In this document: positions 34,387 to 48,827 of the stretch, one piece after another
How the letters are laid out: every line of letters begins with the position of its first letter
How positions within the stretch are numbered: the first letter of the stretch is position 1
Notes under the pieces: model-generated
Database searches by the model: none
What the model was told of the DNA's origin: nothing
The model's input: the letters and a program-made list of their open reading frames with translations, nothing else
NCBI GenBank assembly: GCA_016213505.1
Contig: JACRAF010000057.1
Location: 1-64,000, forward strand
Direction: 5' to 3'
Origin: Devosia nanyangense
GTDB taxonomy: Bacteria; Pseudomonadota; Alphaproteobacteria; Rhizobiales; Devosiaceae
DNA: 64,000 nucleotides
Made by a program: the position numbers and the translations under genes

Positions 34387-35199
34387 CTAGGCGCGCTGCA
34401 CGGTTCGGATCGCGCCCGCCTGCGGGTCGTAGCCGCGGGCCGCGAGCAGGAACGCCACCACCGTGCAGCCGGCCACCACCCCGAGCGAGAGCAGGTTCAA
34501 TTGCCCATAGGCGGCGAAGCGGATCAGCTCGACCGCGTGGTTGAAGGGGTTGAGCTCGGACAGCCAGTAGACGAGATCCGCGCCGGCCTCGCGCAGCTTC
34601 CACAAGGGGTAGAGGGCGGACGATAGAAAGAACATCGGGAACACCACGAAGTTCATCATCCCGGCAAAATTCTCGATCTGTCGCGTATAGACCGAGACCA
34701 AGAGCCCGATCGATCCCAGCATCAGGCCGGCGAGCACGATCGCCGGGGCGGCATAGAGGGTGCCGAGCCCTGGGAACGCATAGCCGAAGATGCGCGCCAG
34801 CAGCAGGAACGCATAGGCCTGCAGCAGCGCGAGAATCGTCGCCGCGGCGATCTTGGCGAACAACAGGAAACTGCGCGGCAGCGGGCTGACCAGCATCACC
34901 CGCATCACCCCTGCCTCGCGGTCGTAGACCATCGACAGCGCCGACTGCATGCACTGGAACAGGACGACGATGCCGACCAGTCCCGGCAGGACGTATTCCT
35001 GATAGGGCGTGTAGGTCTGGTAGGGCGGAATGATCGAGATGCCCAACAAATCGTGGAGGCCCGTCGCGAACACCAGCAGCCACAGCGCCGGCCGGATCAG
35101 CGACGAGATCAGCCGCTCGGTCTGCCGCAGGAACTTCGCGATCTCGCGCCAGGTGATGGCGGAAAAGCCGAGCCACAGGTGGCCGATGGTTACTGGCAC
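34387..35199 (-). CDS. ABC-2 type permease of the PQQ-dehydrogenase-associated ABC system (LutF-like)
   Basis: A 270-residue ABC-2 permease with six spans, of the kind regularly found beside PQQ-dependent alcohol dehydrogenases and in lanthanide-utilisation (lut) clusters. Recognisable parts are RPALWLLVFATGL, the YVLPGLVGIVVLFQCMQSALSMVYDREAGVMRVMLVSPLPRS-type region and FVVFPMFFLSSALYPLW. The GTG at 35199 overlaps the stop of the binding-protein gene by ten bases; longer starts lie inside that gene. Its ATPase partner is probably 40420-41181. Confidence 0.8.
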   Translation of the reverse strand: MPVTIGHLWLGFSAITWREIAKFLRQTERLISSLIRPALWLLVFATGLHDLLGISIIPPYQTYTPYQEYVLPGLVGIVVLFQCMQSALSMVYDREAGVMRVMLVSPLPRSFLLFAKIAAATILALLQAYAFLLLARIFGYAFPGLGTLYAAPAIVLAGLMLGSIGLLVSVYTRQIENFAGMMNFVVFPMFFLSSALYPLWKLREAGADLVYWLSELNPFNHAVELIRFAAYGQLNLLSLGVVAGCTVVAFLLAARGYDPQAGAIRTVQRA

Positions 35200-36365
35200 T
35201 TGAACTCCGGCTCGTCGGTGCCCAGCGTATCGAGCACGTTGGTCTGGTGCAGGAACCCCTCCAGCGGCGCCACGTCGATCACCGCGTTGGACGTCGACAG
35301 CATGATCGGCATCCTGAGCTGTCCGTCCCACGGCCGGAAGTTCATCGACACGCCCTTCGATCCGTCGACGCGCAGCCGGTTGCTGCGCATGAAAGCGTCG
35401 ACCTTCTTGAAGTCCTCCGAATTGGCCTTGACGTAAGAGGTGACGATCGCCTTGGCGGCCATCCAGGTCGACCAGTCATGACCGGTCATACGCAGACCGT
35501 TGGTGAACCTGCCGAAGCGCAGGGTGACCTGGGTCGCGCTATCGTGGTCCGCCGACCAGTGCCACGCGCTGGCGACGAGACCGGCGGTGCCGACCACCGG
35601 CCGCGGCAGTTGCGTGGCATAGGGGAGGTAGCGGCCGAACTCGCCGAAACTGTCGGCGAGAAAGACCAGATCGTAGTCGGCCCCGCCGGTGATCAGCTTG
35701 GCGTTGTTCTGTTCGCGATTGGCCGGGTCGGTCGCCAGCGTGAACTGCCTGGTGTCCGCTATGTCGAGCCGCAGGCGCTGCGCCGCGGCGGTGAAGGCGT
35801 CGGCGATTTCCTTGTCGCGCTTCTCCTCTCCATACAGCACGAGAACGCGGGTCCAGTTCTGCGTGCGCAGATACTGCACCATGGCATCGGCCAGCATGCG
35901 GTCGGAGGCCGCGCTGTGCAGCAAATTGGGATAGCACCGGGTCCGCAGATAATCGTCCGGGGCCGTGGCATTGATCAGCGTCACCGGCTGGTCGCGCGTC
36001 AGCGCCGCCACCTGGTCGAGGAGCGACGCGGGCAGGTCGACGATGACGAAATGCTCGCCGGCTGCCACCATCCTGCGCACCGCATCGACGAGACCCGTGA
36101 TGTCGGCCGCCTTCTCGAAATCGAGCGTGAAGCTCATGCCCACCGCTTGGCCGATGATGCCGAGGTCGTCGACGCCCATTTTGGCGCCGAACGTCGGATC
36201 GTCCGGGGGATTGATCTCGATCCGGGTGTAGACGAGATCCGGCTGATAGCGCGGATCGTCGCTGAGGCCGAGATAGCCGATGGTCACGCTGCCGCCGGCG
36301 AACGTCGCCCCCGCCTGGACGGCGAAGGCGAGCAAGAGGCCGATGGCGGCGAGGCACCTAGTCAT
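35190..36365 (-). CDS. ABC substrate-binding protein of the PQQ-dehydrogenase-associated system (LutA-like)
   Basis: A 391-residue exported protein. The signal peptide (MTRCLAAIGLLLAFAVQAGA) is followed by a branched-chain-type binding fold: VTIGYLGLSDDPRYQPDLVY, then VLVLYGEEKRDKEIADAF and DYDLVFLADSFGEFGRYLPY. Family members accompany PQQ dehydrogenases; in Methylorubrum a relative in the lut cluster takes part in lanthanide handling. Many acidic residues are present but no proven metal site can be named. The ATG at 36365 overlaps the upstream beta-propeller gene by eight bases. Confidence 0.8.
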   Translation of the reverse strand: MTRCLAAIGLLLAFAVQAGATFAGGSVTIGYLGLSDDPRYQPDLVYTRIEINPPDDPTFGAKMGVDDLGIIGQAVGMSFTLDFEKAADITGLVDAVRRMVAAGEHFVIVDLPASLLDQVAALTRDQPVTLINATAPDDYLRTRCYPNLLHSAASDRMLADAMVQYLRTQNWTRVLVLYGEEKRDKEIADAFTAAAQRLRLDIADTRQFTLATDPANREQNNAKLITGGADYDLVFLADSFGEFGRYLPYATQLPRPVVGTAGLVASAWHWSADHDSATQVTLRFGRFTNGLRMTGHDWSTWMAAKAIVTSYVKANSEDFKKVDAFMRSNRLRVDGSKGVSMNFRPWDGQLRMPIMLSTSNAVIDVAPLEGFLHQTNVLDTLGTDEPEFKCQ

Positions 36366-37347
36366 CGATGACCACCGAATGAGGCACACGTCCGATCGGC
36401 AGGGACTTTACCGCCGACATCGACGCCATGTCGACGATGGTGATGTCGTCCGACAGGCCGTTGGCCACGATGGCGATCTTTTCGTCCTTGCTGAGGTCGA
36501 TCGACCAGGCGCGCTTGCCGACAAGCACATATTTCAGCACGTCGTGCGTGTGCGCGTCGATGATGGCGATGTGGTTGGCGCGCCCGAGGCTGAGCAGGAT
36601 CTTGCTGCCGTCGCGGGTGATCGCCATGCCGACCGGCGTCACGTCCTCCTCGCGGAAGCCGGGCGGCACGAAGGTCAGGCTGTCCTTGATCTCGAGCGTC
36701 TTGGTGTCGATGATGTCGATCTCGCTCGACAGCTCGCACGAAACCCAAAGCTCGGACCCGTCCGGCGTCAGGATGAGGCGGCGCGGCCGCGTGCCCACCA
36801 CGATGTTCTTGGTCACCGCCCCGCTCGCCGGATCAATGACATGGACCATGTCGGCCACTTCCGAGGTGGCGTAGACCGTTTTGCCGTCGGGCGTCACCAG
36901 AATGCCTTCGGGCTCGGCCCCGGTCGGGATGTCCTGGGTCGAGATGCGGCTCGTGAGGTCGATGCGCTCGACGCGCGAATCCTCCTCGTCCGAGACGTAG
37001 ATCGCCGACTCGTCGCCGGTGAAGGCGAACACCTCCGGGCTCGGGCCGGTCGGGATGCTGTCGACCACCTCGAGCGTGGCAACGTCGATGACGTCGATCG
37101 AGTCGTCATCCCCGCAGGCGACATAGAGCAGCGTATGGGCGGCATTGAAGTGCATGTCGCGCGGGCGGCGCGACGTGGGAATGCGCTTGACGATAGTGTA
37201 GTCCTTGTCGAGGACGACGATTTCGTTGCCCTTTTCGGTGGACACGAAGATGAGGCCCGTACCTGCGGCCACAGCCGGCAGGGTCAGGAACAAGGCCAGG
37301 ATGAGCGCGGCAGCGCTCGCCAAAAGCGATCTCGGATGCACGGTCAT
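36358..37347 (-). CDS. Periplasmic YVTN beta-propeller protein, PQQ-catabolism type (LutD-like)
   Basis: A 329-residue exported propeller with a signal peptide ending PAVAAG. Blades repeat the pattern IDVATLEVVDSIPTGPSPEV, TLYVACGDDDSIDVID and VYATSEVADMVHVIDP. Such proteins are fixed members of the PQQ-dehydrogenase ABC gene set, and the lut version (LutD) was reported to bind lanthanides. The many DD and ED pairs between blades would suit metal binding. It overlaps its neighbours on both sides, showing tight operon structure. Confidence 0.82.
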   Translation of the reverse strand: MTVHPRSLLASAAALILALFLTLPAVAAGTGLIFVSTEKGNEIVVLDKDYTIVKRIPTSRRPRDMHFNAAHTLLYVACGDDDSIDVIDVATLEVVDSIPTGPSPEVFAFTGDESAIYVSDEEDSRVERIDLTSRISTQDIPTGAEPEGILVTPDGKTVYATSEVADMVHVIDPASGAVTKNIVVGTRPRRLILTPDGSELWVSCELSSEIDIIDTKTLEIKDSLTFVPPGFREEDVTPVGMAITRDGSKILLSLGRANHIAIIDAHTHDVLKYVLVGKRAWSIDLSKDEKIAIVANGLSDDITIVDMASMSAVKSLPIGRVPHSVVIDD

Positions 37348-37775
37348 TTCACCACGAATTTGCCGATGAGGCCGCGCGTCTCGTAGCCCGGCACGTAAAA
37401 GTCGTATTCGCCGGGCCGCACCGGAACGAACGAGATTTCGACGGTCTCTTCATCGCCGAAGCTGATCTCGTCGAAACCGGCGAGGCTGATCGAGACTTCG
37501 CCCACTGAGACCTGATTGATCCATGAATTGCGCAGCAGCTCCGGCATGGCGAAGTCGATCTCGTCGCTGCCGTCGCTGCTGATCTCCAGGCGGTAATACT
37601 GGCCGGTTTCGAGCTGGTACTCGGTTTCCGAAAACGTCAGATCGGCCATGTTGATCTCGAGTTCGTCGAGATCGGTGCCATTGGCGGCGAGATTGCCTTC
37701 GGCCGATGCCCCGAACGGGGCGAAAACGCCCAAGAAAACAGCTATCGCTGCAATAGATTTTTGCAATGCCGGCAT
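37344..37775 (-). CDS. Exported cupredoxin-like protein without copper ligands
   Basis: A 143-residue protein with a signal peptide ending FGASAE. The C-terminal segment VRPGEYDFYVPGYETRGLIG follows the layout of cupredoxin-fold proteins (compare YxFxCPxPGHxxxGMxG), but the copper-ligand Cys, His and Met positions are all substituted. It is strongly acidic (DLDELEINMADL, DGSDEIDFAMPE). The start at MPALQKSI is chosen for the signal peptide; an earlier in-frame start is 19 codons upstream. It is the first gene of the leftward lut-like operon and may chaperone a hard metal ion rather than copper; that is speculation. Confidence 0.65.
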   Translation of the reverse strand: MPALQKSIAAIAVFLGVFAPFGASAEGNLAANGTDLDELEINMADLTFSETEYQLETGQYYRLEISSDGSDEIDFAMPELLRNSWINQVSVGEVSISLAGFDEISFGDEETVEISFVPVRPGEYDFYVPGYETRGLIGKFVVK

Positions 37776-37917
37776 CGAAAGCCTCCAGTTCGCATGATTG
37801 GCATCGAGCCTGAGGGCCGGCAACCATGACACGACAATGCTCAGTATTGTCTAGACTGATGAGGTCAGATGCTAGCGCTTGGAAAAACAGGGGGTTGAGG
37901 CCCTCGAGGGGAGAACC

Positions 37918-38907
37918 ATGCGCAGCTTCGTACGTCCACTTCTGGCCGGTCTGGCGATCGCATCCGCCGTCGTCTTGTCCGGATTCTCGCCGGAGACCCA
38001 CAAGCTCACCCTCGGCCTGCAGGGCACCGGAACCGCCAAGTGGGAACTCGCCGCGATGACGGCGCTGGGCATCGACAAAAAGCACCAGCTCGAGCTCGAC
38101 GTCCGCGACCTCGCCGATTCCAAGGCCGGGCAGATCGCGCTCCAGGCCGGCGAGGTCGAGGTGATCCTCTCCGATTTCGTCTGGGTGTCGCTGCAGCGCC
38201 ATCAGGGCAACATGGTCACCATGGTGCCGCATTCGCTGACCGTGGGCGGGCTGATCGTCGACCCGGCGGCCGGCATCGCGACCATCGCCGACCTCAAGGG
38301 CAAGACCCTCGCCGTCTCGGGCAGCGCCGTCGACAAAAGCTTCGTCATCCTCAGCGCCTACTACGCCAAGCAGACCGGGTCCAAGCTCCTCGACGACGTC
38401 GACGCCAAATTCGGCGCCCCGCCGCTGATCAACGAGCTGATCACCGGTGACAAGGCGCAGGCGGCGCTCAATCTGTGGAACTGGAACGCCAGGGCCAAGA
38501 TCGCCGGCAAGACCGAGCTGATCTCGGTGCCCGCGATGCTCGCCGATCTGGGCGTCTCCGAGACCCCGCCGCTGCTCGGCTGGGTGTTCTCGGACGACAC
38601 GGCAAACCAGAAGAAGGTCGAACTCAAGGCCTTCCTCGATTCTTCCTTCGAGACCAAGGCGGCGCTGATGACGGACGACGCCGTCTGGGACACCATTCGG
38701 CCCGCCATGAACGTCGGCGACGACGACGCCCTGTTCAAGCAGCTGCGTGACGACTACCGCGCCGGCATCGTGCTGAAATACTCGGCCAGCGACATGGGAC
38801 CGGCCGAGCAGTCCTTCGCCCTGATGGCCAAGTTCGGCGGACCCGACGTCGTCGGCGACGCCACCGACCTGGCCGACGGCACGTTCTGGAAGGGCTATCA
38901 CAAATAG
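37918..38907 (+). CDS. NitT/TauT-type ABC transporter substrate-binding protein
   Basis: A 329-residue exported protein. GAGGGGAG precedes the ATG, and the signal peptide ends near VVLSGFSPET. The body is a type II periplasmic fold of the nitrate/sulphonate group: VEVILSDFVWVSLQRHQG, then TIADLKGKTLAVSGSAVDKSF. The three-gene set (this, permease, ATPase) lies divergent from the lut-like operon and ends by overlapping the PQQ-associated ATPase gene, so it works with the quinoprotein cluster. The ligand is unknown; family members bind sulphonates, nitrate, bicarbonate or aromatic compounds. Confidence 0.82.
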   Translation: MRSFVRPLLAGLAIASAVVLSGFSPETHKLTLGLQGTGTAKWELAAMTALGIDKKHQLELDVRDLADSKAGQIALQAGEVEVILSDFVWVSLQRHQGNMVTMVPHSLTVGGLIVDPAAGIATIADLKGKTLAVSGSAVDKSFVILSAYYAKQTGSKLLDDVDAKFGAPPLINELITGDKAQAALNLWNWNARAKIAGKTELISVPAMLADLGVSETPPLLGWVFSDDTANQKKVELKAFLDSSFETKAALMTDDAVWDTIRPAMNVGDDDALFKQLRDDYRAGIVLKYSASDMGPAEQSFALMAKFGGPDVVGDATDLADGTFWKGYHK

Positions 38908-38972
38908 ACCAAGCGCCCGCTGGTCGCGCAACGACAATCCGACCGGCACGCGCCGATCGCGGTCGCCGGGAT

Positions 38973-39713
38973 TTGCCTTGGGAGCTGATCAGCCCGATCC
39001 TGCTGCTGGTCGTGTGGCAGGCGCTGGCGATGCTGTTTCCAGGGCGGTTGTTTCCGACGCCCATCGCCGTCGCCCAGCAGATCTGGACCGCCACCGTATC
39101 GGGCAAGCTGCTGGCCGACATGGCCAAGACGCTGACCCGCGCCGGCATCGCCTTCGCGATCTCGATGGGCATCGGCATCGCCATCGGCATTGTCCTCGGC
39201 CGCATCAGGCTGGCCGACCGGTTGTTCTCGACCTGGGTCATCATCGGGCTCAACCTGCCGGCGATCGTCATCGCCATCGTCCTTTACATCTGGCTCGGGC
39301 TGACCGAGGTCGCACTGATCCTGGCGGTGATCGTCAACAAGGTGCCGCTGGTGATCGCCACCATCCGCGAGGGCGTGCGCAGCTTCTCGCGCGACTACGA
39401 CGAGCTGGCGCGCGCCTACCGCATGCCGCTCGGCCGGCGGCTGCGGCTCATCTTCGTGCCGCAGCTCACGCCCTATGTGCTGGCGGCGGCGCGCACCGGC
39501 CTGTCGCTGATCTGGAAGATCGTTCTGGTCTTCGAGGTGCTGGGCAGCGATGGCGGCGTCGGCTTCCGCATCAGCGAGTTTTTTCAATTCTTCGACATCA
39601 AGGGGATTCTCGCCTACACCACGGCGTTCATCCTCGTGGTGCTCGTCTTCGAGTACGGGATCATGCGGCCGCTGGAGCGCAGTGCAGTCAAATGGCGGAC
39701 GGACCGCAGCTGA
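38973..39713 (+). CDS. NitT/TauT-type ABC transporter permease
   Basis: A 246-residue permease with six spans and the EAA-like loop DELARAYRMPLGRRLRLIFVPQLTPY. The only near start is the TTG at 38973, without a good ribosome-binding site; the frame stays open back to the preceding stop, so the true start is uncertain. It forms a transporter with the binding protein upstream and the ATPase that overlaps it by 22 bases. Confidence 0.82.
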   Translation: MPWELISPILLLVVWQALAMLFPGRLFPTPIAVAQQIWTATVSGKLLADMAKTLTRAGIAFAISMGIGIAIGIVLGRIRLADRLFSTWVIIGLNLPAIVIAIVLYIWLGLTEVALILAVIVNKVPLVIATIREGVRSFSRDYDELARAYRMPLGRRLRLIFVPQLTPYVLAAARTGLSLIWKIVLVFEVLGSDGGVGFRISEFFQFFDIKGILAYTTAFILVVLVFEYGIMRPLERSAVKWRTDRS

Positions 39714-40423
39714 ACATCGATATCGTGGCCAAGCGCTTTGCGGTGCTGCCCGTTCCCCTGATGGTCGATCTCCACCTCGAGGTGGCGGCGGCCTCGGTGG
39801 TGGCGCTGGTCGGGCCGTCGGGCGTCGGCAAGTCGACGCTGCTGCGCATGATCGCCGGCATCGACACCGATTTTGCCGGCACCATCGTGATCGACGGCGT
39901 GCCCGCAGCCACGGCGCCGCCCGCCGGATTCGTATTCCAGGATGCGCGCCTGCTCCCCTGGCTCACCGCCGAGGCCAATATCCGCGCGGTGCGCGAGGCG
40001 ACCACGCCGGCCGAGGCGCGCGACCTGCTTGGCCGGGTCGGGCTCGCCGGCTACGAGAATGCCTATCCGCACGAATTGTCGGGCGGCATGCAGCGCCGTG
40101 TGGCGCTGGCGCGGGCCTTCTCGGTCAATCCGCGCCTGCTGCTGCTCGACGAGCCCTTCGTGTCGCTCGACCGGCACCTCGTCACCGAGGTCCAGCAGGT
40201 GTTCCTCGACCTCGTGCGCGACACCAGCGCCACGGTGGTCCTCGTCACCCATCTGCCTGAGGACGCGGCGCGCCTCGCCGACCGGGCCATCTTGCTCACC
40301 GGCCAGCCGGCGCGCATCATCGCCGACATCGTCCTGCCCGGCCTGCGCGGCACCCGCGGCGCGGCGGAGATTTCCCGCCTCATCGACGAAATAGCGTTGC
40401 CATCGAGCGAGACCGCACTGTGA
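39692..40423 (+). CDS. NitT/TauT-type ABC transporter ATP-binding protein
   Basis: A 243-residue ATPase. Walker A is GPSGVGKST, the Q-loop is FVFQDARLLPW, the signature LSGGMQRRVALARAF and Walker B LLLLDEPFVSLD. It overlaps the permease gene by 22 bases and the next ATPase gene by four (GTGA). Confidence 0.88.
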   Translation: MADGPQLNIDIVAKRFAVLPVPLMVDLHLEVAAASVVALVGPSGVGKSTLLRMIAGIDTDFAGTIVIDGVPAATAPPAGFVFQDARLLPWLTAEANIRAVREATTPAEARDLLGRVGLAGYENAYPHELSGGMQRRVALARAFSVNPRLLLLDEPFVSLDRHLVTEVQQVFLDLVRDTSATVVLVTHLPEDAARLADRAILLTGQPARIIADIVLPGLRGTRGAAEISRLIDEIALPSSETAL

Positions 40424-41181
40424 CCGACACTCCCCCCGTGCTTGAGCTCGACGATGTGCGCAAATCCTACGGCCGCACCGAGGCCCTCAAGGGCGTCACC
40501 TTCTCGCTAGCGCGCGCCGAAATCGTCGGGCTGCTCGGACCCAATGGCGCCGGCAAGTCGACGCTGTTCCAGATCGCCGCCGGCCTTTTTGCGCCCGATG
40601 GCGGCAGCGTCAAACTGTTCGGCCTCGACTATCGCGGGCACTCCGCCGAGATCCTGTCGCGGCTGGGTGTGGTGTTCCAGGCCCGCGCCATCGATCTCGA
40701 CATGACGGTCGAAGCCAATCTGGCGTTCCACGCCGCGCTGTTCGGCCTCCACGGCCCATCGGCACGGCAGCGCTTCGCCGACGTGGCGGCGCTGCTCGGG
40801 ATTTCCGATCTGGTCAAGAAGCCGGTGCGCACGCTGTCGGGCGGCAACCAGCGCCGCGTCGAAGTCGCCCGGGCGCTGCTTAACCTGCCGGACCTGCTGC
40901 TCATGGACGAGCCCTCGGTGGGGCTCGATCCGACCACGCGGCAGCTGCTGGTGCGGCACATCCACACCGTGCGCGAGCAGCACGGCACCACCATCCTGTG
41001 GGCCACCCATTTGATCGAGGAGGTCGCCCATGCCGACCGCATCGTGCTCATCGTCGGCGGCAAGATCGTCGATCAGGGAACACCGGCCGAACTGATGCAA
41101 CGGTCCGGCCGGGCCAGCCTCACCGAGGCCTATGTGGCGCTGACCGGAGCGCGGACGGCCGAGGCCCCGCCCCTCGCCTGA
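40420..41181 (+). CDS. ABC ATP-binding protein of the PQQ-dehydrogenase-associated system (LutE-like)
   Basis: A 253-residue ATPase of the ABC-2/drug-export type. Walker A is GPNGAGKST, the signature is LSGGNQRRVEVARAL and Walker B LLLMDEPSVGLD. The sequence around GVVFQARAIDLDMTVEANL is characteristic of the PQQ-alcohol-dehydrogenase ABC family. Its natural partner is the ABC-2 permease at 34387-35199, from which it is separated by the whole NitT-type operon. The GTG start overlaps the preceding gene. Confidence 0.82.
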   Translation: MTDTPPVLELDDVRKSYGRTEALKGVTFSLARAEIVGLLGPNGAGKSTLFQIAAGLFAPDGGSVKLFGLDYRGHSAEILSRLGVVFQARAIDLDMTVEANLAFHAALFGLHGPSARQRFADVAALLGISDLVKKPVRTLSGGNQRRVEVARALLNLPDLLLMDEPSVGLDPTTRQLLVRHIHTVREQHGTTILWATHLIEEVAHADRIVLIVGGKIVDQGTPAELMQRSGRASLTEAYVALTGARTAEAPPLA

Positions 41182-41324
41182 GAGGGGGCCGCATTCGCGA
41201 GGTGGCCTGTCGCCAGAGCAAGTCAGGTCCGTCCAGACCCTGTCTATGGCAGGGGCCAATCCTGGCTATCGGCTTTTCCAATGCCTGACATGGCTAGGCT
41301 GCCCCGACGCTTCACGGAGACGGC

Positions 41325-42134
41325 ATGCGCAGCTGGCACATCCTCGTCGCCCTGGGCCTGATCCTGTCGTCGGCGCTCGGGCTTCTGGTCATGGCGGGCG
41401 GGGCGCGCGAACTTTTGTCGCCGCCTCTTCAGGCCGAACTCGCCGTGCAGGATTTCCCCTTGCCGCCGGACATGGGCGTCGATCCCAACCGTGTGGCCGT
41501 CTTCATGGCCAAAGAACTGCAACAACGGCTGGATGACGATATTGCGATCCGCCTGACACTGAAGGCGGATACGGTGAAAAAGGTGAAGGAGATCGTGCTG
41601 CCGCGGCTGATGAATGTCGTCGTGGTTCAGGCGATGATGCATGAGATCCCCGAACTGTCGGCGCTTCTGGACCTTGGATCCTTCCGCCGCACGGTCAGCG
41701 GGTCGGTCACCAGCGCCAATGCCGCCGACGATGTGGCACTTACCGTGCCGGGCGCCCTGCTGGCCGCCGTCGACGGACAGAAGGTCAAGGTCACCGCAAC
41801 TTCGACCGGGATGGCAGCGCTGGAACTCGGCCCCATGACGGCGGGGCAAAGCCATCAGGTGACTCTGTGGATGGACGCCAGCGCGACGGGGGCCGACCTC
41901 GGCCAGTCCATCCTCCTCGGCGCCGCCAATGGCCAGCGCGGACGCGTCCTGCTCTGGGGCGATCACGGCTGGTTCGGTGCCGATGTCGAAGCGCTGCGCT
42001 GGGGGCGCTGGCTGATCGGAGCGGATCTGGGCGCTGTCTTGGCCTTCGGCCTGGCCAGCCTGATATTGCCTTTCCTGACCCGCCGGCGTGACCGCGCGCG
42101 CCCCGCATTGGCCAGGCCGGCCAAGCCGGCCTGA
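41325..42134 (+). CDS. Membrane-anchored protein of unknown function
   Basis: A 269-residue protein. An N-terminal hydrophobic segment (ILVALGLILSSALGLLVMAGG) and a C-terminal span (LIGADLGAVLAFGLASLILPFL) bracket a periplasmic region with a long helical part (ELQQRLDDDIAIRLTLKADT). I do not recognise the family. GGAGA precedes the ATG. It is convergent with the following group of genes and separated from the ABC genes by 143 bp in which I see nothing. Base usage here appears less extreme than in the upstream operons, an impression not measured. Confidence 0.55.
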   Translation: MRSWHILVALGLILSSALGLLVMAGGARELLSPPLQAELAVQDFPLPPDMGVDPNRVAVFMAKELQQRLDDDIAIRLTLKADTVKKVKEIVLPRLMNVVVVQAMMHEIPELSALLDLGSFRRTVSGSVTSANAADDVALTVPGALLAAVDGQKVKVTATSTGMAALELGPMTAGQSHQVTLWMDASATGADLGQSILLGAANGQRGRVLLWGDHGWFGADVEALRWGRWLIGADLGAVLAFGLASLILPFLTRRRDRARPALARPAKPA

Positions 42135-42318
42135 TCGATCCGGACAGACCTGGCCGATCGCGCCCATCAGTTGGTTGTACCTGCGCACCGCAAGGGCCAC
42201 ACGCCCCACGCCACGACAATCTCGGCCGGGGACAGACCGACGCGACGAGCCCGACCGCCTCGAGCCTATGTCGTGCCGACCGGCAACCGCGCCCCGGGCG
42301 AAGGACCGTCCCGGCCGA

Positions 42319-42909
42319 TCATTCTGGCTTTTCGGGAGTGACGGGGGCGGCTTCAACGCCGAAGGTCAGCATCCCGGCTTCGAACTGGAAAACCCGCTCG
42401 CCCACGGTCCCTGCCCCGCCGGGTCTGCCGTCGACCATGCCCGTCTCGATTTCCTGCGCCAGGGCTTCAGCGGTCTCTTCAGGCAAGGCCATCCTGGCAT
42501 CGACCGTGCCCTGGATTTGCTCGCCCTGGGCAATCTTGCCCATTGCCTCGTTGACCTTGATCTTCAGATCGTCCGAATAGGGGAGCTGGTAGGCGCGTGG
42601 CTGACCCAAAGGGAAATTGGCGGCATCCAGCGTTTGCAGCCACAGGAACACATGTCCCTTTTCGCTCTGCAGCGGATTGGGCTCGATCACCTGGGCCCAG
42701 AGCATGCGGAAGCTGAACGGGATCGGGCCGTCCGTAGGCAAGCCGCGCAATTCGCCGACGCCATTGAACGTCAGCGGAATGAGCGCGACGGTCGCCGCCG
42801 TCGCCAGCGCCTTGAACACCCAGTGCAGCCGTGACGCCAGCAGAAGGTAGGCCAACAGTGCCGCCACCAGCGCATAGGCCGCCGTCAGGGACAGGATGGT
42901 GAAGGTCAT
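42319..42909 (-). CDS. Two-span membrane protein of unknown function
   Basis: A 196-residue protein with two N-terminal spans (TILSLTAAYALVAALLAYLLL and VFKALATAATVALIPL) and a soluble, probably periplasmic, C-terminal region. Family not recognised. It overlaps the next upstream gene by four bases (ATGA), so it is the last member of a tight operon of a TolQ-like protein, a single-pass protein and itself. Confidence 0.55.
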   Translation of the reverse strand: MTFTILSLTAAYALVAALLAYLLLASRLHWVFKALATAATVALIPLTFNGVGELRGLPTDGPIPFSFRMLWAQVIEPNPLQSEKGHVFLWLQTLDAANFPLGQPRAYQLPYSDDLKIKVNEAMGKIAQGEQIQGTVDARMALPEETAEALAQEIETGMVDGRPGGAGTVGERVFQFEAGMLTFGVEAAPVTPEKPE

Positions 42910-43592
42910 TGCTGAATCACTTGTCCAGTCGTTGCATCAATCGGTCCGCCCTGCCCCTGCCCATTGGGGCCCGACGCGCCGCCTTTCCCAATGGATGACC
43001 GCGTCAGCTCAACAAGGCTTTTTGGCGTACTGATGACATTGACCACGTCCTGCCCCTTCAGCGTGAAGCGCACCGCCGTCTGTTCATCGCCCGTGCCCTT
43101 CAGCTCCAGCGTCTGGTAGAAGATGATCTTCACCGTCGGGTTCAGCTTTTCGACCTTCACCTGCACCGGCAGGGGCGCCGAGCCGTTGGCGATGTAGTGG
43201 ACGACGTTGACGACGTATTCGCCGTCCTGCAGCCCGCGGAAGGCAACGATTTCCTGGTTCAGCGGATTCGAGATTTCCTTGCTGTCCAGCAGGATCACAT
43301 CCTTGAACATACCCCGGTCGTCGCGTTCCAGGTTCATCAGCCCGCCTTCGCGCTGGTTGTACCAGACGATGTTGCCGGCCGGATCTTCGACATAGGTGTC
43401 CACGTCGTCGGGATTGTTGTCGGGCCAGGCGACGGTGATCATCATCTCGGCCTTGGGGTCGACCTTGCCCTCGTCGGCTGGCTTGTTGATCATCGCGAAC
43501 GAGATGAAGAACATGAAGGTGATGGCCTTCAGCGAGTTGAACAGAAGGGCCGAGAAGATCTCGAACTCCGGTTCCTGTTCCTCTTCAAACAT
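42906..43592 (-). CDS. Single-pass periplasmic protein paired with a TolQ-like channel protein
   Basis: A 228-residue protein with an acidic cytoplasmic start (MFEEEQEPEFEIF), one span (residues about 14-36, LLFNSLKAITFMFFISFAMI) and a large periplasmic domain. The layout is that of ExbD/TolR/MotB partners, but the membrane aspartate that carries protons in ExbD is absent; a lysine sits near the start of the span. The periplasmic part (DVDTYVEDPAGNIVWYNQRE and so on) resembles proteins of unknown function. It overlaps both neighbours, so it surely acts with them. Confidence 0.6.
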   Translation of the reverse strand: MFEEEQEPEFEIFSALLFNSLKAITFMFFISFAMINKPADEGKVDPKAEMMITVAWPDNNPDDVDTYVEDPAGNIVWYNQREGGLMNLERDDRGMFKDVILLDSKEISNPLNQEIVAFRGLQDGEYVVNVVHYIANGSAPLPVQVKVEKLNPTVKIIFYQTLELKGTGDEQTAVRFTLKGQDVVNVISTPKSLVELTRSSIGKGGASGPNGQGQGGPIDATTGQVIQQ

Positions 43593-44328
43593 CGCGCTCG
43601 CCCCTGGCCAACAGGGGCAGCAGGGACACTTCTGTGAAGCTGACCGCCGTCTGGCTGATGTCGGTCACGAGCGCATCGGCAATGTTGTATTCCAGCCGAA
43701 GAAGGATGCCGCCAATCAGCCCGGCAATCGTGGTCAGCAGAGACACGGCCATGCCCGCGATCATCTGCTGCAAGGCGCCGCGCAGCGTATCGACGTCGAA
43801 ATCCGACAGATCTCCCATGGAATTCAGCATCATGACGAAGCCGACCATCGTGCCCAGCATGCCGAGCTTGTAAAGAAGGTCCGTGCCATAGGTGCCGATC
43901 TTCGTGCGCCGGCGAAAACTGGCCCCCAGGCTCTGCATCAGAAGATGCGCGTTGCCCTCGACCTCGCCCGGACGCTCGCGCGAGCGGATGATGTCGGCCA
44001 TGTAGCGGTCGATCAGCCCGCCGCCACGCGGCAGTTCGGGAACCTTCGTCGACGTGGCCAGCATATCCTTTACCTGAAGCGCCCGGCGGTATTCGCGCGC
44101 CAGCTCCACCAGAATCCACAGGCAATGGCCCGAGAAGGCCACGTAGAGGACCGCGATCAACACAGTGATCTTCGATCGGTCGGCGCCGAACAGATAGCTC
44201 AGCAGCCCATAGTCATAGGACACGACCGTCGCCACCGCGATCAGCGCCATCAGAAGCACCCATTTCAGGACCGCATCAAAAGCCCCGTTGCGGCCCGGTG
44301 CCATGATTGCATCGGTAAGTTGCGCCAT
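43585..44328 (-). CDS. MotA/TolQ/ExbB-type proton channel family protein
   Basis: A 247-residue inner-membrane protein. Two N-terminal spans, a cytoplasmic loop, and the conserved helix pair GTDLLYKLGMLGTMVGFVMM and GMAVSLLTTIAGLIGGILLR match the MotA/TolQ/ExbB channel domain. Such proteins pair with an ExbD/TolR/MotB-like partner to convert proton flow into work, for example on outer-membrane receptors. The partner candidate overlaps it directly. It is close to a quinoprotein and lut-like genes, so energising metal uptake is an attractive but unproven role. Confidence 0.78.
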   Translation of the reverse strand: MAQLTDAIMAPGRNGAFDAVLKWVLLMALIAVATVVSYDYGLLSYLFGADRSKITVLIAVLYVAFSGHCLWILVELAREYRRALQVKDMLATSTKVPELPRGGGLIDRYMADIIRSRERPGEVEGNAHLLMQSLGASFRRRTKIGTYGTDLLYKLGMLGTMVGFVMMLNSMGDLSDFDVDTLRGALQQMIAGMAVSLLTTIAGLIGGILLRLEYNIADALVTDISQTAVSFTEVSLLPLLARGERDV

Positions 44329-44336
44329 CGTCCGTC

Positions 44337-44900
44337 CTATCTGTAACCGCCCGGGGTTTCGCGGCGGCGAAACACCCAGGGTTCTTCGAAATTCACGCCC
44401 GGCTGCCACAGGCCGACCGCGGCCGTGATCGCATCGGCCATTGCGGCATCGTAGTCATCGGATTGCTCGCCAAAGGCGAGCGCCAGACCGGCCCTCACCA
44501 TTTCGGCATTCAGATCCTGGCCACCGCCCTCGCAAACGCCGAAGCGGCGGCCGAATGGGTCCGGATCGCTCTTGTAGGTGCAGGTCACTTCCCCGCGCCC
44601 GGCCAACAGCTGCAAATGGCGGAACGCCACGTCATAGCACCCCCACAGCTCGCCGTTCAGCTGGCAGGTCTGCTTCCTTTCGGGGGCATCGACGCCCCAC
44701 AGGATCACGCGCTGCGTGCCGAATTTCAGGACGTCGGCGTCGATCACCTCGGGCGTGCCGCGGATTTCGGTGTCGGTCGTCTGGGCCTGGGCGGAGCCGG
44801 TCAGCGCGCCGCACAAGGCGGCACCGGACAGCAAGGCAATTGAAAGGGCCAATGTCCAGGATTTGCGAAAGCGCTGGAGGCGGCCAGTATCAGAAGGCAT
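44337..44900 (-). CDS. Exported thermonuclease-like (SNase) protein
   Basis: A 187-residue protein with a signal peptide (ALSIALLSGAALCGALTGSA) followed by an SNase domain. The active-site pattern R-x-I-L-W-G-V-D-A-P-E-R carries the arginine and glutamate pair of staphylococcal nuclease, and PFGRRFGVC supplies the second arginine. Four cysteines could form disulphides in the periplasm. It would cleave nucleic acids outside the cytoplasm. It is eight bp downstream of nothing on its strand and 35 bp divergent from the pentapeptide-repeat gene. Its role in this cluster is not clear. Confidence 0.75.
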   Translation of the reverse strand: MPSDTGRLQRFRKSWTLALSIALLSGAALCGALTGSAQAQTTDTEIRGTPEVIDADVLKFGTQRVILWGVDAPERKQTCQLNGELWGCYDVAFRHLQLLAGRGEVTCTYKSDPDPFGRRFGVCEGGGQDLNAEMVRAGLALAFGEQSDDYDAAMADAITAAVGLWQPGVNFEEPWVFRRRETPGGYR

Positions 44901-44934
44901 AAGCAGGCCCTTTCGAAAGCCGGAGAGACCAAGA

Positions 44935-45705
44935 ATGCGCATTGTGATTGCGGCGGCCCTGGCCTTGATGGCGGGCCCGGTCTTTGCGGATGACGTCGCC
45001 GATCTGATCGCCGGAACGATCAGGGAATGCCGGGGCTGCGACCTGCATGGCGCGAATTTCAAGAAGGCCGATCTGACCGGGGTTGACCTGACCGGTGCGA
45101 ACCTGACGGACGCCACGTTTCACCGCGCCAACCTGCGCGGCGCGATCCTGACCGGCGTCACCGCCATCGGCACCAATTTCAATCTGGCCGATCTGACCCA
45201 GGCCCAGATGGCCAAGGGCGATTTCACCCGCTCTATGTTCTACAGCGCCCAGCTGTCGGGCGCAGATCTTTCGGGGGCCAACCTGACCGAGACGCGGATG
45301 CAGGAGGTGCGGCTGACCTCGGCCAAGCTGCCGGGCGCGGTGCTGGACCGCGCCATCATGCACGACGCCCGGCTGAACAACTGCGATTTCACCGGAGCAT
45401 CCTTCCTGGGGACGAACCTTGAACGCACCAGGGCCGAGCGTTCCAAGTTCATCGGCGCCACGATGTACAGCGCCAGCTTCGGCAAGTCCCATGCCGCTGC
45501 GGCCGATTTCTCGGGCGCGACGATCACCCAGAGCGACTTCTATGGCGTCGACCTGCGCCGGGCGACATTCGACGGCGCCAAGATCTCGGCCAGCCGCTTC
45601 ACCCGGGCGGCCACCGACGAGGGCACCTTCACCGGCGCGGTCTTGACCAACAACTTCATGCCCGACGGTCGCTTGCAATCTCAGGGCCCCTCGGACGGCA
45701 AATAG
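44935..45705 (+). CDS. Exported pentapeptide-repeat protein
   Basis: A 256-residue protein with a signal peptide (MRIVIAAALALMAGPVFADD) and then about 35 tandem A-(D/N)-L-x-x-type pentapeptides from residue 35 on (for example GVDLTGANLTDATFHRANLR), which fold as a right-handed quadrilateral beta-helix. Two cysteines precede the helix (ECRGCDL). A periplasmic location is unusual for DNA-mimic pentapeptide proteins, so a scaffold role is more likely. Its 3' end overlaps the convergent neighbour by 25 bases. Confidence 0.8.
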   Translation: MRIVIAAALALMAGPVFADDVADLIAGTIRECRGCDLHGANFKKADLTGVDLTGANLTDATFHRANLRGAILTGVTAIGTNFNLADLTQAQMAKGDFTRSMFYSAQLSGADLSGANLTETRMQEVRLTSAKLPGAVLDRAIMHDARLNNCDFTGASFLGTNLERTRAERSKFIGATMYSASFGKSHAAAADFSGATITQSDFYGVDLRRATFDGAKISASRFTRAATDEGTFTGAVLTNNFMPDGRLQSQGPSDGK

Positions 45706-46442
45706 GGCGGGTTCACCAGTTCCAGCCGGGTCTCCGACTGGTAATAGCCCTTGTTGACCTGTTGGGTTTCGCGGCTCAGCCCCTCTTGGCCCTTCTTGCG
45801 CAGATAGCTCCCCTCGATCACCACCGTCTGGCCGCTGCCGTCGGGATTGGTGCCAGCGCAGCGCTGATGAATGAATTCGCTGCCGACCTTCTGCTCGCCC
45901 TCCCGCATCGGGATATCCTGGCAGTCGAGGTTCCAGGGCCCGAACCGCGCCTGGAAATTCTTGCTCAGCACCACTGCGACGCGGCGCTCGCGGTCGCTGG
46001 CGCGGTCGTCGGTCACGATGCGGATGCCCTGGGACACGCCCTTGTCGTCGACGAGGATCGAGACGATGACGGGATGGGCATAGACGGAGGTGCCGCCGGC
46101 CAGGGCGCGGTATTCCAGCTCCAAAGCGCGGGCGATGTAGTCGTTCTCGTCGTCATAGGTGAAGGCGATCTCGCGCAGGCCTGAGGCTTCGGGCGTGCAT
46201 TGCGCCCAGTCGCCGAAGCTCTTGATTTCTATCGACATCGGGCCGCCATTGGTGCCGCAGGCGATGATCGCGGCGACGCTGTCGGGGATGGCGGTCACGG
46301 GCTGGCCGAGCTGGACATCCCAGATGGCGAAGTCCGGCTCGACCGTGGAATTCTGCGCCGCCGCGGTACCGGGCAGACCGGCGAGGCCCGCCACCATCAG
46401 CAGCAGCATCCGCCCGACCCATCCCCCGCCCCGACGCTGCAT
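45681..46442 (-). CDS. Exported protein of unknown function next to cytochrome c
   Basis: A 253-residue protein with a signal peptide (MLLLMVAGLAGLPGTAAAQN, starting near residue 12) and four cysteines. I do not recognise the family. The ATG at 46442 overlaps the stop of the cytochrome c gene (TGATG), so the two are coupled, and a function tied to the periplasmic electron chain is likely. Its C-terminal coding end overlaps the convergent pentapeptide gene by 25 bases, a rare arrangement. Confidence 0.6.
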   Translation of the reverse strand: MQRRGGGWVGRMLLLMVAGLAGLPGTAAAQNSTVEPDFAIWDVQLGQPVTAIPDSVAAIIACGTNGGPMSIEIKSFGDWAQCTPEASGLREIAFTYDDENDYIARALELEYRALAGGTSVYAHPVIVSILVDDKGVSQGIRIVTDDRASDRERRVAVVLSKNFQARFGPWNLDCQDIPMREGEQKVGSEFIHQRCAGTNPDGSGQTVVIEGSYLRKKGQEGLSRETQQVNKGYYQSETRLELVNPPYLPSEGP

Positions 46443-46972
46443 CACTTGTCCTCGAGGTAAGAGCAGGCTTTGGCGGCCGAGGTGTCATAGTAGTGCGTGC
46501 ATTCCTCGTATGTGGGCTTGCCGTGCCCGACAATGTACTCTTCGAGATAGGCGATCAGGTCGATCATCTGCTTTTCGCGGAAGGTCTTGCCCTTGACCGG
46601 CGCCTGACCGGCGTCGAAGTCTGACATTACAAGGTCGTAGCAGCGATCGTCCTTGTAGCTGACGCCGTCGTGATAGGGCATCTGCGTGCCCGGAATGCCG
46701 CAACGGATGGTGTCGTAAAGGGCCTGCGCATCCAGCTCGGTTTCGCGCAGGTTGGCCGCGGCCGCATGCGCCATCGGATTTCGCCCCGCCTGGCCGTCGC
46801 CTGCCCAGCCGTGGCAATTCACGCAAACGCCGACGCGTTGGTAGACCTGCTTGCCCTTTTCGGCATCGCCCTGAGTGAAGTCCGGGTTTGCGATGAATTC
46901 CGCCAGCACCGTAGAGTTCAGGCACAGCAAGGCCGGCGCGCCGAAAGCCACAAGTTTCAGGGCTTGGAGCAT
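46442..46972 (-). CDS. Monohaem cytochrome c, probable quinoprotein electron acceptor
   Basis: A 176-residue exported cytochrome c with a signal peptide (LKLVAFGAPALLCLNSTVLA). The haem site is CVNCHG and the likely axial methionine lies in GTQMPYH. The C-terminal region adds cysteines (CYDLVM, CTHYYD, ACSYLEDK) beyond those for haem. The ATG at 46972 follows GAGG closely. It lies 115 bp downstream of the PQQ dehydrogenase on the same strand, the usual place for the electron acceptor (XoxG/cytochrome cL-type role). Confidence 0.82.
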   Translation of the reverse strand: MLQALKLVAFGAPALLCLNSTVLAEFIANPDFTQGDAEKGKQVYQRVGVCVNCHGWAGDGQAGRNPMAHAAAANLRETELDAQALYDTIRCGIPGTQMPYHDGVSYKDDRCYDLVMSDFDAGQAPVKGKTFREKQMIDLIAYLEEYIVGHGKPTYEECTHYYDTSAAKACSYLEDK

Positions 46973-47087
46973 CAGATCCTCAGGAAAGTCGCGGGCCTTC
47001 CAAGGAAAGGCCGCCGCGGGGTCGGACACGACCGACAAGTATGCAAGGGCCGGGCAGGTTTCCCTGCCCGGCCCAAGGTCACTGGTC

Positions 47088-48827
47088 TCAGAGACCGAAG
47101 ACCCACAGGACGTTGGCGGCCGAGATGCCTTCCAGCTCCGGGTGACCGAAGGCTGCAATGCCGATGCCGCCACCCACGATGGCGATGTATTCCTTGCCAC
47201 CCGCGTTGAAGGCGATGGGCGAGCCCTGGAACGAGGTGCCCACGTTCATCGACCACTTCACGTCCAGCGTCTTCGCGTCATAGGCCGCGAAGGTGCCGTC
47301 CAGCGAGCCGGCCCACACCAGGTCGCTCGTGGCCAAGACGCCGCTATACATCGGGAACGGGGTCGCCTTCTGCGCAACCTGCTTACCGGTGGTCACGTCG
47401 ATGGCGTTGACCGTGCCGGTTTGCACGCCGCTGTTCGTGCCGGCGCCGCCGATGAAGATCTGGCCGGGCACGACGTCTGCCGGGGCCACGGTCTTCACTG
47501 ACAGGTCCGAGCACCCTTCGATGCCGACTGCATAGGCGATACCGAGCGTCGGGTTGTAGCCCGTCGGGAAGAAGTTTGAACCGCCCTGGATGTTCGGGCA
47601 GGTCGTAGCCTTCGCCCCGGCGCGGTCGATCTTGCCCATCGCGTAGGTCTGCAGCGACTTGGTCGGGTCATATTCGAGCGGCATGCCGGTCTTCGGGTCG
47701 ATGCCCTTGGTCCAGGTCAGCTTCGTGACATACTGGCCCGACTGGATGTAGGCGCCGGTGGTGCGGTCGAGGTCATAGAAGATGCCGTTCCGGCCGAAGT
47801 GCGCCAGAACCTTGCGATCCTCGCCGTTGATCTTGGTGTCCAACAGCAGCTGGGGCCCGACTTCGTCATAGTCCATGTAGTCGCCGGGCGTGTACTGGAA
47901 GTGCCACTTCAGCTTGCCGGTATCGACGTCGATGGCAAGCGTCGAGTTGGTATAGAGGTTGTCGCCCGGACGATATTCCGGATCATACATCGGCACCGGG
48001 TTGCCCGTGCCCCAATAGGTCGTGTTGGTTGCCGGGTCATAGGCGCCCGTCACCCACATGCCGCCGCCGCCGGTTTTCCAGCAATCGGGGTTGCCCGCCT
48101 CGTCGCATTTCCAGGTTTCCGATCCGGGCTGGCCCGGTTCCGGCACCGCGTAGGTGCGCCACAACTCGTCGCCGGTATCGGCCTTCAGCGCCGCGAGAAA
48201 GCCGCGCGTCGCCCAGTCACCAAGGGAATTGCTGATGAGGATCTTGTCGCCTACGACCAGCGGTGCGGCGGTGAAGCCTTCACCATTCGTGCCGACCTGC
48301 TTATCCCAGACCACGTCACCGGTTTCGCTATCGCAGGCGACCACGTGGCCGTTGCCAAGCCCGGTGATGACGTTCTTGCCCGAGAGCGCGAGGCCGCGGT
48401 TCGCCAGGATGACGCTGTAGGTGGGGTCCTTCTCGACACCCGTGTCGCAGGTCCAGACCAGTTTGGCGGACTTGCCGTCCGACACGTCGAACTTGTAGGG
48501 CGTTCCCCATGGGTCCGACACATAAAGGAAGCCATTGTCGGCCAGGGGCGTCGTTTCGACCGAGCCCACGCCGAAGCCGCCCGGCTCGGTCCCGCCGATG
48601 GTCGCTGCCGTGACAACGCGCAGGCCGGCGACGTTGCTGGCGTTGATTTCGTTGAGCGTCGAGAACCGGTTCGAATCATAGGTCTTGTGGACCATCAGCC
48701 AGTTTCCGGCTTCGGCTTCGGTCCCTGCGGCCAACAGACGGTCGGGCGTTACCTGTGCCCAAGCCGTCGCCCCGCTCAAAGCCAGAACTGCTGCGCAGGT
48801 TCCGGCCAGTAGTTTCACCATTCTCAT
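47088..48827 (-). CDS. PQQ-dependent alcohol dehydrogenase, lanthanide-type active site
   Basis: A 579-residue exported quinoprotein, an eight-bladed propeller. The ATG at 48827 is seven bases after GGAGG; the signal peptide ends TAWAQ. Compared with methanol dehydrogenases, the metal ligand N276 (GTGNP), catalytic D319 and R346 (FGRNG) are kept, W258 stacks on PQQ, and D321 two residues after D319 (MDYDE) is the extra aspartate typical of lanthanide-dependent enzymes. The usual metal-ligand glutamate is D204 (SLGDW), and the vicinal cysteine pair is absent (S138-V139). The substrate is unknown; it feeds the neighbouring cytochrome c. It is not a canonical XoxF but clearly of the methanol/ethanol family. 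Confidence 0.88.
   Translation of the reverse strand: MRMVKLLAGTCAAVLALSGATAWAQVTPDRLLAAGTEAEAGNWLMVHKTYDSNRFSTLNEINASNVAGLRVVTAATIGGTEPGGFGVGSVETTPLADNGFLYVSDPWGTPYKFDVSDGKSAKLVWTCDTGVEKDPTYSVILANRGLALSGKNVITGLGNGHVVACDSETGDVVWDKQVGTNGEGFTAAPLVVGDKILISNSLGDWATRGFLAALKADTGDELWRTYAVPEPGQPGSETWKCDEAGNPDCWKTGGGGMWVTGAYDPATNTTYWGTGNPVPMYDPEYRPGDNLYTNSTLAIDVDTGKLKWHFQYTPGDYMDYDEVGPQLLLDTKINGEDRKVLAHFGRNGIFYDLDRTTGAYIQSGQYVTKLTWTKGIDPKTGMPLEYDPTKSLQTYAMGKIDRAGAKATTCPNIQGGSNFFPTGYNPTLGIAYAVGIEGCSDLSVKTVAPADVVPGQIFIGGAGTNSGVQTGTVNAIDVTTGKQVAQKATPFPMYSGVLATSDLVWAGSLDGTFAAYDAKTLDVKWSMNVGTSFQGSPIAFNAGGKEYIAIVGGGIGIAAFGHPELEGISAANVLWVFGL

Follow-up and report, generated by a model that had tools for sequence, protein, structure and literature searches.

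What does a three-gene operon with a MotA/TolQ/ExbB-type member do beside a quinoprotein of the rare-earth kind? The question is raised by an island that spans 34.4–48.8 kb of the window, i.e., the whole 64,000-base stretch analyzed (bases 1–64000 of contig 40) in the Devosia nanyangense genome GCA_016213505.1 (4.19 Mb, 69 contigs, 91.75% complete). The island combines a pyrroloquinoline quinone (PQQ) dehydrogenase of the DYD type, an ATP-binding cassette (ABC) set of the PedA1A2BC type, and the operon, whose genes are termed here U1 (43585–44328), U2 (42906–43592), and U3 (42319–42909), all on the minus strand. An original prediction, made from the sequence alone, had named the quinoprotein, the ABC set, and the TolQ-like operon, and profile matches identify all of these parts as real genes where it had placed them. 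U3, which was not on its list, belongs to the same unit: U1 and U2 overlap by 8 bases and U2 and U3 by 4, therefore the three genes are probably translationally coupled. As to the overall interpretation, the conserved island and the tie to PQQ dehydrogenases have stood, and the operon as an ExbB/ExbD-type energizer of lanthanide uptake has not. Our own reading, held tentatively at a probability of about 0.45, is that U1-U2-U3 forms a separate inner-membrane, motor-type envelope complex that serves periplasmic quinoproteins of both metal types and is attached here to a ped-like alcohol-oxidation cluster.

A comparison of gene neighborhoods, which the original prediction had proposed, ties the TolQ-like operon statistically to PQQ dehydrogenases in both co-occurrence and proximity, and the fetched neighborhoods reveal that the three modules make up a conserved island in relatives. 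Among 61 relatives, the host included, U2 was found in 20. With a strong U2 defined by an E value under 1e-40 and a dehydrogenase by a TIGR03075 match, the dehydrogenase is present in 19 of 19 strong-U2 genomes vs. 10 of the 42 other relatives (p = 6.7e-9). Within the class, 66 of 387 genomes have a U2 match at E 0.001; for the phylum, the count is 22 of 397 at E 1e-40. In the class, 28 of the 30 genomes with U2 under 1e-60 have a TIGR03075 match, as compared to 83 of the 357 others (p = 1.1e-14). Proximity was assessed in quinoprotein genomes, using as a control the 76 places in dehydrogenase genomes out of 148 MotA_ExbB places among those listed, with two U1 rows left out. A dehydrogenase lies within 10 kb at 14 of 22 U2 loci and at none of the 76 other MotA_ExbB genes listed, and a chance neighborhood is rejected on this count. 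The 22 loci comprise 19 strong ones (13 near a dehydrogenase) and 3 weak ones (1 near); three of the strong misses (G003, G018, and G025) are located on short or broken contigs.

U1-U2-U3 is conserved in Alpha- and Gammaproteobacteria. The best 80 of at least 502 stretches of the GTDB set encoding a U2 relative were taken as named loci; a U1 open reading frame (ORF) is present in 76 and a U3 ORF in 71 of them. A dehydrogenase is found at 54 of these best 80 loci, within 5 kb at 51, and at that same distance at 31 of the 46 loci with 5 kb covered on both flanks. A tree of 120 U2 sequences, kept from 140 ORFs after the removal of fragments and of rows more than 97% alike, splits into a core clade (97 sequences) and a distant clade (23 sequences). 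In the core clade, 57 members are accompanied by the dehydrogenase, 8 by the ABC set, and 20 by neither, while 12 are too short to call; the respective figures for the dehydrogenase in the distant clade are 1 with, 16 without, and 6 too short. The quinoprotein-neighbor label requires 10 changes on this tree. The distant clade shows the pairing at least twice: at L043 the triad stands with a dehydrogenase and ABC genes, and at L208, which was fetched after the tree had been built and whose placement was judged from identities, with a dehydrogenase, ABC genes, and U5-like and cytochrome c genes. U2 is present in two copies at L182 and L208, in tandem or around U1. The contigs titled Sphaerisporangium (L048) and Phycisphaeraceae (L054) carry a Devosia- or Bauldia-like cluster and look misbinned. 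At L107, L115, L117, L161, L185, L186, and L187, none of which has a quinoprotein nearby, U3 is followed by an exported protein (cluster 21) that is also seen in L118 and L121; L115 and L185 are one contig.

Which kind of quinoprotein does the triad accompany? A threonine at the third place of the motif is usually the mark of a Ca enzyme, and an acid at that place usually the mark of a lanthanide enzyme. The window dehydrogenase (47088–48827, minus strand; signal peptide by eye) scores 403 bits against TIGR03075 (cut-off 480) and is the only match to this model in the host genome at E 1e-50. Its catalytic site reads GDYMDYDEV, in which DYD places an acid two residues after the catalytic Asp; it has neither a heme motif nor vicinal cysteines. 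DYD aligns with the DFD of the best solved relative, 6zcv, which we take to be PedH. Since the enzyme falls below the TIGR03075 cut-off and has no adjacent Cys pair, it is the motif that makes it a probable lanthanide-dependent dehydrogenase. The 69 quinoprotein ORFs with the motif covered (another 6 of the 75 were left out because it was not) divide into 41 with DYT or DFT and 28 with DYD, DFD, or DLD. Five quinoprotein loci had been fetched twice, whereby G004 dropped out of the locus table, its other copy (L033) being without the motif. Among ORFs of more than 550 residues, a C-terminal heme motif is present in 40 of 40 of the DYT/DFT kind vs. 0 of 26 of the third-acid kind; one DYT/DFT example is nearest to the type II quinohemoprotein 1kv9. 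With loci counted once, PedABC-type genes appear in the covered stretch of 0 of 40 DYT/DFT loci and of 8 of 21 third-acid loci (p = 6.9e-5). At least one of the SNase, pentapeptide, and U5 genes is found at 19 of 21 third-acid loci vs. 0 of 40 DYT/DFT loci (p = 7e-14). What the two kinds of neighborhood share is the triad. Since it tends to occur with quinoproteins whether or not their motif is of the rare-earth type, its role is probably to serve the enzyme and not rare-earth import.

On its profile match to PF01618 (30.8 bits vs. a cut-off of 22.9), U1 is classed as a MotA/TolQ/ExbB protein, with about four membrane segments by hydropathy. All 53 U1 relatives scanned match the same family at E 0.01, and the membrane core reads GT..GF...GMA.AL.TT..GL, with G159, T160, G163, F164, G192, and T200 invariant. 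A Zorya defense system was considered and rejected: U1 matches ZorA at 26.9 bits vs. a cut-off of 100, ZorA matches are only weak, and U2 and U3 have none. The U2 and U3 of the window match no NCBIfam model at E 0.01 and no Pfam model at E 0.1, and U2 shows no match to the ExbD/TolR family PF02472 at E values up to 5. The host genome yielded a single PF02472 gene, on contig 3, where it adjoins a MotA_ExbB gene and is close to YbgC- and RuvB-like frames; this pair, named by eye, reads as TolQR.

The structure model of U2 (mean predicted local distance difference test score, pLDDT, 87.9) has a helix at residues 9–35 and a beta-sandwich at residues 50–187 that, by analogy, is probably periplasmic; the invariant residues include W56, D63, D65, D91, G94, E114, and E170. 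The head is alike in overall fold to TerD structures. It aligns with 3ibz at Z 10.8 and a root-mean-square deviation of 3.8 over 141 residues and with 2qz7, 2qng, and 2kxt at Z 8.9–9.2; the TerD-like matches span 128–141 residues at Z 8.9–10.8, on a scale on which the top scores of models lacking a clear match are usually Z 7–8. One further row among them is 9a6r, and the rows below fall to Z 6.1. The fold matches, but TerD homology is not supported by sequence: the profile comparison (hhalign, probability 0.5) is negative, and no PF02342 (TerD) match occurs in the host genome. Searches with U2 gave nothing among PDB sequences below E 0.23, and Foldseek returned nothing for U2 or U3 at E 0.001 or better. 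DUF2135 and PPC make weak contact with only 7 and 5 of 74 U2 members, respectively. U3 is predicted to consist of two membrane helices and a small beta-rich domain with a PRAY.LPY motif. Its model (pLDDT 85.1) reaches Z 6.3 at best, which we read as no clear fold match.

How far, then, does the triad resemble ExbBD, TolQR, MotAB, and other 5:2 ion-driven motors, as described in the available sections of PMC9389320 and PMC12505986? U1 has the membrane core of the family, U2 has one membrane helix and a second domain, and most U2 members have the family Asp. Unlike these motors, the triad has a TerD-like beta-sandwich as the U2 domain and U3 as an additional protein, and the Asp is absent in the window clade. 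A literature search turned up no description of the triad in the texts as far as they were available, and the available part of the MotAB-evolution paper never uses the term PQQ. A conserved membrane Asp is given as a mark of MotB, TolR, and AglQ/S in PMC9389320. At the corresponding position, F[TRQ]D stands in the U2 helix of 125 of the 138 ORFs that could be scored (2 of the 140, gapped at the motif, were dropped), and 13 lack the Asp; as the 140 include loci fetched twice, the 97% set gives 108 with Asp and 11 without. The window U2 and its nearest relatives read FSALLFNSLK, with Ala in place of Asp. A membrane Lys at +6 or +9 from the Phe is present in 13 of 13 Asp-less sequences, whereas Lys or Arg from +2 to +22 occurs in 0 of the 125 with Asp, 42 of which have one at the edge, at +23. 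In a further 20 U2 sequences, all 11 Asp-less ones (10 of them from one family code) have Lys at +6, and none of the 9 with Asp has such a Lys. The loss of Asp amounts to three changes on the U2 tree, which was built without these columns. A precedent for a key acid on the ring protein is GldLM, with E49 of GldL, as presented in the accessible part of PMC8986121; GldM differs in having a long multi-domain shaft. Three U1 columns separate the Asp and Asp-less groups by charge: column 18, which is acidic in 8 of the 12 Asp-less cases, and columns 139 and 183, which are basic. All three fall outside the predicted membrane segments, column 18 by one residue before the first segment, and no clear compensating acid was found inside the membrane part of U1. 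Given the change of Asp to Ala, the new Lys, and no clear compensating acid in U1, ion coupling in the window clade may be rewired or lost.

Could U1 and U2 nevertheless be an ExbB/ExbD-like pair that supplies the DYD enzyme with lanthanide by energizing a step of uptake at the outer membrane, as the original prediction had it? The setting speaks for this, since the DYD enzyme and the ABC set adjoin the triad. Each protein of the set has its own model (TIGR03861, TIGR03863, TIGR03864, or TIGR03866) as the best match, TIGR03861 and TIGR03866 over the cut-off and the other two under it, and on these matches the set is classed as PedA1A2BC-type. According to the available sections of PMC6839425, PedA1A2BC of Pseudomonas putida is required for growth at nanomolar La, and that bacterium likewise has no detected homologue of the methylotroph TonB receptors. 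The ped cluster of P. putida, as far as it is covered by the parts of PMC6839425 and PMC12997753 at hand, has in common with the island a third-acid PQQ alcohol dehydrogenase, a homologous ABC set, a cytochrome c, and a pentapeptide-repeat protein; U1-U2-U3, SNase, U5, and a second ABC transporter are additions of the window. The main text of the 2026 review, as available, does not use the term TolQ. The lut cluster of Methylorubrum extorquens AM1, in the accessible part of PMC7391723, also links an ABC transporter and exported proteins to a lanthanide-type quinoprotein; it has the TonB-dependent receptor LutH and lanmodulin, whereas the search of the present host genome gave no TonB receptor. 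The absence of such a receptor from the window, already noted by the original prediction, thus extends to the whole assembly, with 0 PF00593 matches at 91.75% completeness (the same search was positive in 3 of 14 control genomes). The uptake hypothesis can draw on 11 of the 19 strong-U2 genomes, which carry one to three TonB receptors each, but PF00593 was not found in the other 8, the host among them, 4 of which are 99% complete. Moreover, the triad stands beside Ca-type enzymes at all 40 DYT/DFT loci, with no PedABC-type gene in the covered stretch, and U2 is outside the ExbD family and, in the window clade, without the ion-carrying Asp. Weakened by the TonB receptor searches, the DYT neighbors, and the missing Asp, a dedicated energy-coupling pair for lanthanide supply is unlikely. 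PqqU-like import of PQQ as the energized step was likewise rejected: the host has pqqE (69752–70822 of the window's contig) and no TonB receptor, yet several strong-U2 relatives lack pqqE. G003, G004, G005, G006, G013, G016, G018, and G019 combine the dehydrogenase and the triad with no pqqE at E 1e-40 and may therefore depend on outside PQQ; G004, G005, G006, G013, and G019 also show no TonB receptor.

A separate complex serving quinoproteins of both metal types has to face several observations that weigh against it. The link between the triad and quinoproteins is not universal. Across all class genomes with U2 under 1e-40, the dehydrogenase is present in 37 of 56; between 1e-60 and 1e-40 it is present in 9 of 26, and the 1e-60 cut was placed at a score gap chosen after the scores had been seen. 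For the distant U2 clade, no association with quinoproteins is seen (9 of 26 genomes, p = 0.15). A phylum-wide draw (20 of 23 places fetched, G000, G365, and G057 being already in the set; 10 of the 20 loci from one family code) gave a dehydrogenase within about 9 kb at 4 of 20 loci and in 4 of 10 genus codes, and one further locus has a PedC-like gene. The 80 named loci are biased because they are the best matches to a query that was itself taken from this neighborhood, and many genomes of the DYT set are not independent because this set is confined to one part of the tree. To these is added the loss of the membrane Asp from the window's own U2. It is because of the loci with no quinoprotein nearby that a general Tol-like envelope or stress machine, of use during periplasmic alcohol and aldehyde production and with an ecological link to quinoproteins, must be regarded as a serious rival. 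Other contexts are common (the 20 core-clade and 16 distant-clade members with none of the neighbors, and 16 of the 20 loci of the phylum-wide draw), and some triads lie, by eye, near two-component regulators or an exported protein. This explanation does not readily account for the tight convergent pairing with the enzyme in loci titled SAR86, Pseudomonadales, PS1, and Rhodobiaceae, nor for the lack of such proximity in the other listed MotA_ExbB genes, and we hold it to be possible but rather unlikely. That the triad is a sensor or regulator of ion-motive force or of a periplasmic metal, with the Asp-less forms as non-pumping sensors, seems improbable. The three changes of Asp loss, the membrane Lys in every Asp-less U2, and apparent histidine kinase or response regulator genes that adjoin, by eye, the Asp-less triads of L114, L169, L175, L190, and L191 are in its favor. 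However, the triad encodes no regulator, the closest annotated regulator of the window, a LysR gene, is some 6 kb distant, and most members keep the Asp.

The rest of the island contains further genes beyond those on the first list, namely a second ABC transporter and the SNase-like, pentapeptide-repeat, and U5 genes between the operon and the dehydrogenase. The minus strand carries at the start of the island an ABC-2 permease of the PedC type (34387–35331 as the longest frame; TIGR03861, 337 bits, cut-off 241.35), whose start is not fixed, the match beginning at residue 53. On the same strand follow a substrate-binding protein of the PQQ-alcohol-dehydrogenase type (35190–36365; TIGR03863, 373.9 bits, below the cut-off of 413.6), a YVTN beta-propeller (36358–37347; TIGR03866, over the cut-off), and an exported cupredoxin-like protein (37344–37775; PF13473, E 0.0015, 19 bits, below the cut-off of 27). 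The plus strand then encodes the second, NitT/TauT-type ABC transporter (37918–40423), which consists of an NMT1/SsuA-type binding protein (37918–38907; PF09084), an SsuC-type permease (38973–39713), and a NitT/TauT (SsuB)-type ATPase (39692–40423), the latter two by profile match. It splits the PedABC-type set, as it does in L027, L029, L032, L033, L176, and L179. Still on the plus strand are the ATPase of the PQQ-alcohol-dehydrogenase type (40420–41181; TIGR03864, 272.2 bits, below the cut-off of 302.25) and U4 (41325–42134), a protein with two membrane segments seen in four fetched neighborhoods (L027, L028, L029, and L176). After U3, U2, and U1 come an exported SNase-like protein directly upstream of U1 (44337–44900, minus; PF00565), an exported pentapeptide-repeat protein, PedD-like in kind (44935–45705, plus; PF00805), and, on the minus strand ahead of the dehydrogenase, U5 (45681–46445) and a cytochrome c (46442–46972; PF13442/PF00034). 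U5 is exported, belongs to no Pfam or NCBIfam family, and is kept beside third-acid quinoproteins; the cytochrome is the likely electron acceptor.

If U1-U2-U3 is indeed a motor-type complex at the service of periplasmic quinoproteins, U1 would make up the ring of a 5:2 assembly and U2 its central dimer, with U3 as an extra subunit. Ions would pass via the U2 Asp in most bacteria; in the window clade, with Ala for Asp and a new Lys, coupling may differ or be lost. The U2 head would, less surely, act in the periplasm on a need common to both kinds of quinoprotein and not in lanthanide import. Candidate tasks are to load or release the metal-PQQ cofactor or, alternatively, to maintain the enzyme or its electron partner. 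Our first guess is loading, of either the cofactor or the metal, because both enzyme types depend on PQQ, on a metal that they bind, and on a cytochrome partner, and because acidic residues are retained in the U2 head, whose fold also occurs in a Ca-binding protein (so the title of 2kxt). A bolder version, which we consider doubtful, is that a dedicated ion-driven rotary complex, with U1 as the ring, U2 as the axle with a metal-binding head, and U3, acts mechanically on periplasmic quinoproteins of the Ca and the lanthanide type alike, loading or renewing their metal-PQQ cofactor, the Asp having been swapped for a membrane Lys in several lineages. If true, it would provide a motor for cofactor maturation, and nature would have run an experiment in motor coupling.

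In soil and sea, the oxidation of methanol and other alcohols depends centrally on periplasmic quinoproteins. A complex of the motor type that accompanies many of them, as in the loci titled SAR86, Rhodobiaceae, PS1, Pseudomonadales, and Devosia, would add a new accessory factor to these enzymes. In addition, the repeated loss of Asp together with the membrane Lys would offer a natural test of the charges needed by a 5:2 motor.

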